Source of the DNA: Bacteroidales bacterium
Lineage (GTDB): Bacteria; Bacteroidota; Bacteroidia; Bacteroidales; UBA932
NCBI GenBank assembly: GCA_017464245.1
Contig: JAFUDV010000020.1
Coordinates: forward strand, 1-38,574
Direction: 5' to 3'
DNA: 38,574 bases
Part shown: one piece after another, positions 30,073 to 31,059 of the stretch
Layout of the letters: each line of letters starts with the position of its first letter
How positions within the stretch are numbered: the stretch's first letter is position 1
Made by a program: the position numbers and the translations under genes
The notes under the pieces: model-generated
Databases searched by the model: none
Seen by the model: the letters and a program-made list of their open reading frames with translations, nothing else
Told to the model about the DNA's origin: nothing

Positions 30073-31059
30073 TTATTTTGAAAAAGTGCACGCTTCGCGG
30101 TCTTTTTCCAGCTGCGCCTTCAGGGCATCCAGCGAGGGGAAACGGATTTCGTCGCGGATGCGGCGGAGGAAGGATATCCGAAGCGGGAGGCCATAGATGT
30201 CTTCGCCGAAGTCCAGGATGTGGGTCTCCACCGTCCGGTAGGTTCCGCCCACCGTGGGGCGCAGGCCGATGTTCGTCATCCCGCGATACCGGGCGCCGAG
30301 CACATCGACCTCTACCGCATACACGCCGTTCGCCGGCATCAGCTTCAGTGGCTCGTACAGCCGCATGTTGGCCGTCGGGAACCCGATCGTCCTGCCCAGC
30401 CGGTTTCCCGCCACGACCGCGCCCTTGAGCGCATACCGGTACCCCAGCATCTCCGTCGCCTCGTCGATCTTCCCTTCCTCCAGTGCTTTCCGGATCCTTG
30501 TCGATGAAACAGGAAGGCCTGAGGGTATGGATGTCCCCGGACCTGTGGCCACCCTCGGCCACATAAGAGGGAGGGGCCCATCGCTTGCGATGGGAGGGGT
30601 CGTCGGAGACGACGGTCCGGGGATATCCATACCCTCAGGCCGGATCCCGGCAAGGAGCAGTTCCATCCCCAGTCCGGAAGCGACCTGCCGCAGTTCGGAG
30701 GCCGTCTTGCGGTCGGAGCCGATGCGGTTGTCATAGCCCATGAGGAGGGTGGTGACGCCGAACCGGTCCCGGAGGATGTCCCTGAGGTACTGTTCCGCGG
30801 TCAGGGAGGCGAACTGGCGGGAGAAGTCCACGACTTCCACGCGGTCCACGCCCAGCCCCTTCAGGAGGGACTCCTTCTCCTCCAGCGTGGTGAGGAGACG
30901 GAGTTCGCGGGCGCCGTCCTGGAGGACGGCCCGCGGGTGCGGCCAGAACGTCACGACCAGGGACTCGTCCCCGCGGGCGCGGGCCTCGGAGACGAGCCTG
31001 TCTATGACAAGACGGTGCCCAGTGTGGACACCGTCGAAGAAACCGGTCGTGGCAATCAT
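30073..31059 (-). CDS. ribF: Riboflavin kinase/FAD synthetase with a palindromic in-frame insertion
   Basis: 328 aa. The N-terminal FAD synthetase begins almost at once with the nucleotide-binding GFFDGVHTGH (6-15). An in-frame stop lies close upstream, so no longer start is available, and the usual 15 or so leading residues are missing. The SSTRIRKAL motif (about 185-193) closes this domain. The flavokinase domain follows with GNRLGRTIGFPTANM, NIGLRPTV and the Glu of ETHILDF. The enzyme makes FMN and FAD. Residues about 140-181, immediately before SSTRIR, are a Pro/Gly/Ser-rich stretch encoded by a 126-bp palindromic element, where relatives have a short loop. The gene follows the glycogen synthase-phosphorylase fusion by one base and ends that operon. 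Confidence 0.92.
   Translation of the reverse strand: MIATTGFFDGVHTGHRLVIDRLVSEARARGDESLVVTFWPHPRAVLQDGARELRLLTTLEEKESLLKGLGVDRVEVVDFSRQFASLTAEQYLRDILRDRFGVTTLLMGYDNRIGSDRKTASELRQVASGLGMELLLAGIRPEGMDIPGPSSPTTPPIASDGPLPLMWPRVATGPGTSIPSGLPVSSTRIRKALEEGKIDEATEMLGYRYALKGAVVAGNRLGRTIGFPTANMRLYEPLKLMPANGVYAVEVDVLGARYRGMTNIGLRPTVGGTYRTVETHILDFGEDIYGLPLRISFLRRIRDEIRFPSLDALKAQLEKDREACTFSK
30516..30641. repeat. 126-bp cloverleaf palindromic element inserted in-frame in ribF
   Basis: A 28-bp outer stem, 30516-30543 with 30614-30641, has one mismatch. It encloses three perfect hairpins: TGTGGCC/GGCCACA (30544-30550 and 30557-30563), CCCATCGC/GCGATGGG (30577-30584 and 30587-30594) and GTCGTC/GACGAC (30599-30604 and 30608-30613). 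The first and third abut the outer stem directly, producing a four-way-junction fold. The length is exactly 42 codons, so the ribF frame is preserved. The encoded residues lie in a loop of the FAD synthetase domain. The arrangement resembles Rickettsia palindromic elements. No target duplication was seen and no second copy in this window. Confidence 0.85.

Follow-up and report, generated by a model that had tools for sequence, protein, structure and literature searches.

A palindromic element inserted in frame in a Bacteroidales ribF gene belongs to a repeat family with a conserved core and site-specific arms

The window analysed here is a stretch of 38,574 nt, contig C97 of a Bacteroidales draft genome (2.37 Mb, 97 contigs, 85% complete). 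Its reverse strand carries ribF (positions 30,073–31,059), which encodes an FAD synthetase/riboflavin kinase of 328 residues, with Pfam matches to FAD_syn at residues 2–133 and to Flavokinase at residues 205–324. Immediately ahead of the SSTRIR motif the gene holds an in-frame insert of 126 bp (30,516–30,641), and translation confirms the preliminary description of this DNA, which had reported an element of exactly this length that leaves ribF open. RibF residues 130–182 are unaligned against the solved structure 3op1. We describe the element on the forward strand, which is the sense strand of its core and antisense to ribF.

The outer stem is formed by two 28-nt arms (30,516–30,543 and 30,614–30,641) that lie 70 nt apart and are 96% complementary; 27 of the 28 pairs are Watson-Crick and the remaining one is a T·G pair (i.e., a G·T wobble), in agreement with the 28-bp stem and single mismatch described earlier. 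The left arm has a sequence specific to this site. Between the arms lies a conserved core of 70 bp (30,544–30,613), in which the DNA fold places three hairpins of 7, 7, and 6 pairs. Hairpin I (30,544–30,563) has 7 bp, by fold and pair counts, and the loop ACCCTC. Hairpin II (30,577–30,594) is bordered by AGGGG on either side and has a stem that varies by site, and hairpin III (30,599–30,613) has 6 bp and occurs in two main types across copies, as judged for both from the fold and the alignment. Stems of 7, 8, and 6 bp had been proposed, of which the 7-bp and 6-bp ones stand, while the “8-bp” one comprises 7 pairs with a CTTG loop. Two hairpins had also been said to abut the outer stem without a spare base, and hairpins I and III indeed adjoin it directly.

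The forward strand of positions 30,500–30,660 folds as DNA to −52.2 kcal/mol, compared with −28.4±3.1 kcal/mol for shuffled sequences (z = −7.75), and the element as ribF-sense RNA folds with z = −9.35 relative to shuffles; none of 200 shuffles folded as well as the element, for DNA and RNA alike. For one given spacing, at least 27 Watson-Crick pairs out of 28 would arise by chance with a probability of ∼1e-15, assuming equal base use. No Rfam family matched the element at gathering thresholds and a permissive search returned three matches, all far below their own thresholds, so that we reject a known Rfam RNA.

A DNA search of the same genome (E<1e-3) recovered nine further copies or pieces (L002–L010), giving about ten copies with the one in ribF; a weaker match, L011, is part of the L010 copy. 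When the ten copies are aligned, the core (59–107 bp) is common to all of them and the outer stem is not, each copy having a stem of its own of 20–30 bp, in some cases with mismatches. In L010, and in two stretches at the L002 site in relatives (L122 and L118; genomes G418 and G088), an extra hairpin segment replaces part of the core near the pseudoknot discussed below. A covariance model built from nine of these copies found the element in 50 of 61 genomes sampled from the genus, with up to 45 copies per genome (E≤1e-3), and in 4 of 247 genomes sampled from the order under strict filters (E≤1e-5), the window genome being included in both samples. Since copies are present elsewhere in the genome and across the genus, the element belongs to a repeat family. 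A scan of GTDB keyed on the exact core motif, in which degenerate copies cannot show, returned at least 119 stretches. The 80 titles listed among them all name Bacteroidales or Bacteroidia hosts (one a Candidatus Coprenecus), which bears out the Bacteroidales-type host proposed at the outset, and many of the listed stretches come from rumen compartments. The same exact motif had no match in IMG/VR, and carriage by phages thus finds no support. Two variants were also seen. One near-complete genome, G016, holds a larger subfamily with fixed arms and the same core (many of L203–L220), conserved beyond the arms, and a copy at an end of contig C6 in G084 (L295) is a palindrome that reaches at least 80 bp past the core and may be an assembly fold-back.

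Seven of the ten copies in the window genome lie in frame in genes with Pfam-recognised products (ribF and genes for an aminotransferase, an APH/RapZ-like protein, an ABC ATPase, a THUMP-like/PG_1098-type protein, MurB, and a glycosyltransferase), and three are apparently intergenic; the copy in the ABC ATPase gene lies just past the Walker A motif, which was spotted by eye. In-frame copies are therefore found in unrelated enzyme genes, and the view of the element as a palindromic repeat that tolerates coding insertion proved right for the genome and the genus. Among 115 copies of the GTDB sample (seven more near contig ends were left out of these counts), 32 are in frame and stop-free, 18 antisense and 14 sense to the gene, none is in frame with a stop, in 4 the flanks code on the same strand but not in the same frame, 5 separate genes of opposite direction, and for the other 74 no more than one flank is coding. 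Of 573 control positions on the same contigs, 332 were in-frame coding; copies are thus less frequent within genes than random placement would predict, and where they do lie within a gene the frame is preserved. Five reading frames are represented among the 32 coding copies (10, 9, 6, 4, and 3 copies), and the sixth frame has a TAA within the core of the window copy. Reading of the element in five frames indicates that it carries no conserved peptide.

To compare orthologous sites, we located the flanks of the ten copies in 11 close relatives and fetched 80 stretches. The gap length modulo 3 seen in the window genome recurs in 61 of 66 orthologous gaps at the seven coding sites, and the five exceptions, at L002 and L003, may reflect flank projection. 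The ribF site in 8 close relatives holds the element in 6, a remnant in G003, and an 18-nt loop in G389; in most of the 23 RibF segments listed from 30 fetched loci the loop is short, so that close homologues do not share one loop. At other sites, some species lack the element, some retain deletion remnants, and some carry different repeat families. The presence of other families at the same places indicates that the loops bearing the element are insertion hotspots. Core orientation also differs: both orientations occur among orthologues at 6 of the 7 coding sites, and at five of these (L003, L006, L007, L008, and L009) inverted and direct copies have homologous arms, defined as at least 16 of 24 left-arm letters in common. 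Opposite cores between homologous arms indicate inversion in place, and the core thus appears to have been inverted in some relatives at these five sites. The L002 arms lack such homology, and the two orientations there may stem from a separate insertion. Neither movement nor a flip was seen within one species, and no filled/empty pair of high enough identity was found for a target-site duplication.

Several other repeats were encountered at these loci. A short repeat with a core of approximately GATTCyTTCGCTnCGCTcrGAATGAC occupies the same protein loops in relatives at the L007, L009, and L006 sites (L173, L142, and L168, respectively). The residues CHSERSEES also occur in RibF of G019 and G028 (L024 and L025), and ribF of G019 carries the present element as well. 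The MurB site (L008) in three relatives (L121, L119, and L120) holds another family, GATTCCCGGTCAAGCCGGGAATGAC then GTCATGCCCGACCTGATCGGGCATC. A third family, of the GGGTCCCGGCGCTCATCAGAGCGCCCGG... type, was found at the same loops in L115 and L116 (L002 site) and in L179 (L007 site), where it partly replaces the element. In a RapZ-like gene of G093 (L134), an intact core lies between mismatched arms that resemble the arms of different relatives, as if recombined.

The arms combine site-specific sequence with strong self-pairing. Across 61 non-redundant arm pairs, conditioned on a stem of score ≥10, Watson-Crick pairing is at least 75% at 22 of the first 24 arm positions (62% and 70% at positions 21 and 22) and drops to background near position 30, while sequence information never exceeds 0.7 bit at any position, peaks near the core, and mostly stays below 0.4 bit. 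Between orthologues with homologous arms, 488 of 2,688 arm positions (18.2%) and 1,407 of 6,720 flank positions (20.9%) differ, compared with 14 of 1,736 positions (0.8%) in the unpaired core motifs; of the stem pairs that changed, 199 are compensated, 56 form wobbles, and 24 are broken, all counted over 56 non-independent orthologue pairs that were required to have a recognisable stem and core. The unpaired core motifs were again almost invariant in a looser orthologue comparison. Within the single genome G014, nine copies have cores that are 90–100% identical (22 of 36 pairs, those of equal core length), but their arms average 34% ungapped identity (36 pairs), each forming a nearly perfect stem of 25–34 bp; an adjacent pair of copies (L279), which shares arms, was excluded from the arm comparison. 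In G524, three copies have ∼20 nt of arm in common, apart from a few differences. Most copies thus lack the shared terminal inverted repeats of MITEs, the exceptions being G524, L279, and the fixed-arm subfamily of G016.

These observations raise the question of whether the arms are element DNA at all. The mobile unit could be the core plus a few base pairs, with the target supplying the stem by inverted copying or in the form of pre-existing hairpins. Nearly identical cores within dissimilar yet well-paired arms in G014 are what such an origin predicts, as is the arrangement at two intergenic copies, L005 and L010, where inspection by eye finds the stop codon of the neighbouring gene in the outermost arm and an inverted copy of it across the element. 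However, arms are shared among the three G524 copies and between the adjacent L279 copies, the G016 subfamily has fixed arms around the same core, and the arms retain a weak consensus, with gapped inspection of the G014 arms suggesting the same motif. Flank comparison of 195 copies with 440 loci gave 92 short-site entries, with some sites repeated, and 59 of these hold no known repeat motif or 8-bp palindrome; these 59 comprise native loops and deletion remnants as well as element-free sites, and their net gaps range from −21 to 47 without clustering at one arm length, which makes target-derived arms slightly less likely. The relatives search drew no close sister genome for G014, and at an element-free orthologue (L307) of one G014 copy (L286), whose flanks are 74% and 83% identical, the net gap is 0, as if both arms were extra. 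We consider it unlikely that the target supplies the arms.

Covariation supports a folded core. In 108 aligned GTDB copies, drawn from 100 of the at least 119 loci and aligned by fitting to the model, the nested structure scores 0.531 for covariation, compared with 0.155±0.006 for shuffles and 0.04–0.12 for slid controls. In addition, the hairpin I loop CCCTC (30,552–30,556) is complementary to a downstream pentamer, GAGGG (30,567–30,571), in a relation preserved in 248 of 264 pattern matches of six types: CCCTC/GAGGG (216), CCCGT/ACGGG (16), CCCGC/GCGGG (9), CCCAT/ATGGG (3), CCCCC/GGGGG (3), and CCCAC/GTGGG (1), counts that include some chance matches. The nearly fixed ∼70-bp core thus holds a pseudoknot that covariation supports.

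Outer-stem mismatches suggest which strand folds. With every non-Watson-Crick pair of the outer stem given the same score and read on the core-sense strand, 112 copies conditioned on a stem of score ≥10 show 57 G·T, 23 A·C, and 23 transversion-type mismatches, and 91 non-redundant GTDB copies, counted after removal of near-duplicates, show 38, 8, and 52, respectively; transversions outnumber G·T in the latter set, and the G·T excess is one among transition-type mismatches. A stem of this score is absent in 16 of 122 GTDB copies. Among orthologues the G·T:A·C ratio is 10:2 for copies whose core strand coincides with the mRNA strand, 23:3 for antisense copies, and 5:1 in intergenic copies. Because the bias has the same direction whichever way the host gene runs, it is a property of the element rather than of the host message, and the folded form seems, from these sequence comparisons, to be one strand of the element itself, the core-sense strand. 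Single-stranded DNA, an RNA of the element's own, or a strand-specific mutation process could cause the bias. The proposal of an RNA structure acting in the ribF mRNA is accordingly disfavoured, since the strand to which the wobble pattern is tied is the element's own and is antisense to that message.

A broader version of this idea is that the element works as a regulatory or catalytic RNA that selection maintains at every site. Covariation of the stem and pseudoknot, the near-invariance of unpaired motifs at orthologous insertions, and the tolerance of wobble pairs on one strand would all fit an RNA. Yet coding copies lie in both orientations and apparently flip in place, antisense copies retain the G·T bias of the core strand, and Rfam offers no matching family; site-by-site selection for an RNA therefore strikes us as rather improbable. 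An intervening sequence, whether an intron removed from the message or a segment skipped by the ribosome, is a very improbable explanation: strong structure at conserved enzyme genes would suit it, but conservation of frame and of freedom from stops is not required of a sequence that is removed, and core orientation relative to the gene differs between orthologues. Frame-keeping in 61 of the 66 orthologous gaps leads us to reject a self-splicing intron in particular. Finally, an ordinary expanded protein loop with a coincidental palindrome hardly deserves credence, for although RibF relatives do vary in this loop, the multi-copy family refutes both loop expansion and a chance palindrome, with copies in unrelated genes and in five reading frames and a stem that chance would rarely produce.

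As a possible means of spread, the preliminary description had suggested a RAYT-like transposase. Over the 61 genus genomes, the element and PF01797 (E≤1e-3; 42 of the 45 genomes with a match also reach the curated cut-off) occur together in 43, the element alone in 7, the enzyme alone in 2, and neither in 9 (Fisher 2.8e-5). We ran a profile of five RAYT-like proteins on the 16 genomes without a Pfam match, and it gained a match in 5 of 7 element-bearing and 0 of 9 element-free genomes, four of the five added matches being weak (E 1e-7 to 1e-12). The counts then become 48, 2, 2, and 9 (Fisher 1.6e-7, a statistic that ignores phylogeny), with two genomes having a RAYT and no element copies. Co-occurrence thus speaks for the suggestion and proximity against it: no element copy lies within ∼1.5 kb of any of 28 Y1-transposase hits (8+20), some of which are weak, none is found among the inverted repeats around seven RAYT-like genes or the hairpins around the 4 Y1 loci with a recognised HuH frame, and the three element-bearing genomes outside the genus (G524, G576, and G606) have no RAYT match. 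Pattern search recognised the HuH motif in 4 of the 20 further Y1 loci and not in the other 16, so many of these hits may not be RAYTs. The window itself contains, at positions 43–429 on the forward strand, the C-terminal portion of a RAYT/Y1-transposase-like protein whose gene is truncated where the contig begins (profile E 1.8e-26; 36% identity over 103 residues), and this gene, 30 kb from the element, is a candidate partner enzyme.

Taken together, we conclude, with a probability of roughly 0.6, that the ribF element is one copy of an interspersed structured palindrome that has no conserved protein product and is, or was, mobile. The best reading is that of mobile structured palindromes of the REP/RPE kind, whose arms are homogenised and whose core is flipped by template switching, and which a RAYT-like enzyme may process in the form of single-stranded DNA. 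Since the wobble asymmetry tracks the core and is independent of the host gene, the core-sense strand would fold in single-stranded form, most likely as DNA laid bare during replication. The arms would be kept complementary, and the core now and then flipped, by polymerase template switching from one arm to the other; such homogenisation of arms and inversion of the spacer are reported in passages of PMC8604942. The element would spread by a single-strand DNA transposase, for which a RAYT-like HuH enzyme is the best candidate, and host selection would purge out-of-frame insertions, leaving those in tolerant loops. Template switching would explain at once the near-perfect but divergent arms, their outward growth into host DNA, and the core flips, and a stop codon with its inverted copy, as at L005 and L010, is expected if inverted copying extends the arms into host DNA. 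On its own, however, template switching leaves the near-invariant unpaired core motifs and the G·T excess unexplained, the invariant motifs suggesting selection on the folded strand, recent spread, or both. A more elaborate scheme, which we regard as doubtful, is that the core travels nearly arm-less, gains a new near-perfect stem of 25–30 bp at each landing by inverted copying of host DNA, and then flips within protein genes, so that a gene alternates over evolution between two in-frame loops.

Relatives of this family among known repeats can be compared by description. The proposed likeness to Rickettsia palindromic elements (RPEs) holds for the in-frame palindrome family, as RPEs are multi-copy palindromes of ∼100–150 bp that lie between genes or in frame in unrelated enzyme genes. 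It does not extend to the peptide: RPEs are described in parts of PMC10969869 as encoding a conserved one, whereas the present copies use five frames and both orientations; the arms here are moreover site-specific, the core has a pseudoknot and is also found inverted, and the hosts are Bacteroidales. REPs tagged with GTAG or CGTC and their RAYT REPtrons are similar in being dispersed hairpins, some in frame, that co-occur with RAYT-like genes, and passages of PMC3733652 report CGTC repeats from five phyla, including Bacteroidetes. REPs, however, are single hairpins of 20–40 bp with an unpaired tag, as opposed to a multi-hairpin element of 120 bp, and the repeats that flank RAYT genes in REPtrons have no counterpart at the 28 Y1 loci. 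Several of the RAYT-like proteins have a YIxNNP-like motif, as given for TnpA_REP subclass 2.4, and subclasses 2.4 and 2.6 have hosts that include Bacteroidetes, a likeness drawn from descriptions and not from a tree or a letter-by-letter comparison of structure. Inverted repeats in yeast coding genes show arm homogenisation and spacer inversion as here, with inverted spacers of 2–5 bp in the portions of PMC8604942 consulted, in contrast to the multi-copy conserved core of tens of bases inverted here. Bacterial MITEs (ERIC/RU) are likewise small non-autonomous palindromes, some intragenic (PMC10969869, in part), but the arm sequence of the present family is not common to most copies in the genus. 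RPEs, GTAG/CGTC REPs, and in-frame REP insertions are already in print (PMC10969869, PMC3733652, PMC6006769, and PMC2817692, each as excerpted). We found no earlier report of the present family in open-licence full text, a body of literature outside which most subscription papers fall. What is new relative to known in-frame palindromes is the pseudoknotted core, arms that are specific to each site and covary, and inversion of the core within protein genes.

Rickettsia provides the best-known cases of in-frame palindromic insertion. The Bacteroidales of gut and rumen provide a recurrent case with many orthologous sites, in which comparison can put long-standing questions to the test: by what route selfish palindromes come to lie in genes that stay intact, for how long palindromes survive, and at what rate template switching rewrites coding DNA. 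Ordinary transposition does not readily account for the association of the same core with different arms or for the inverted cores at orthologous sites. The family also offers a candidate substrate for the RAYT-like enzymes of the phylum, which are poorly understood.
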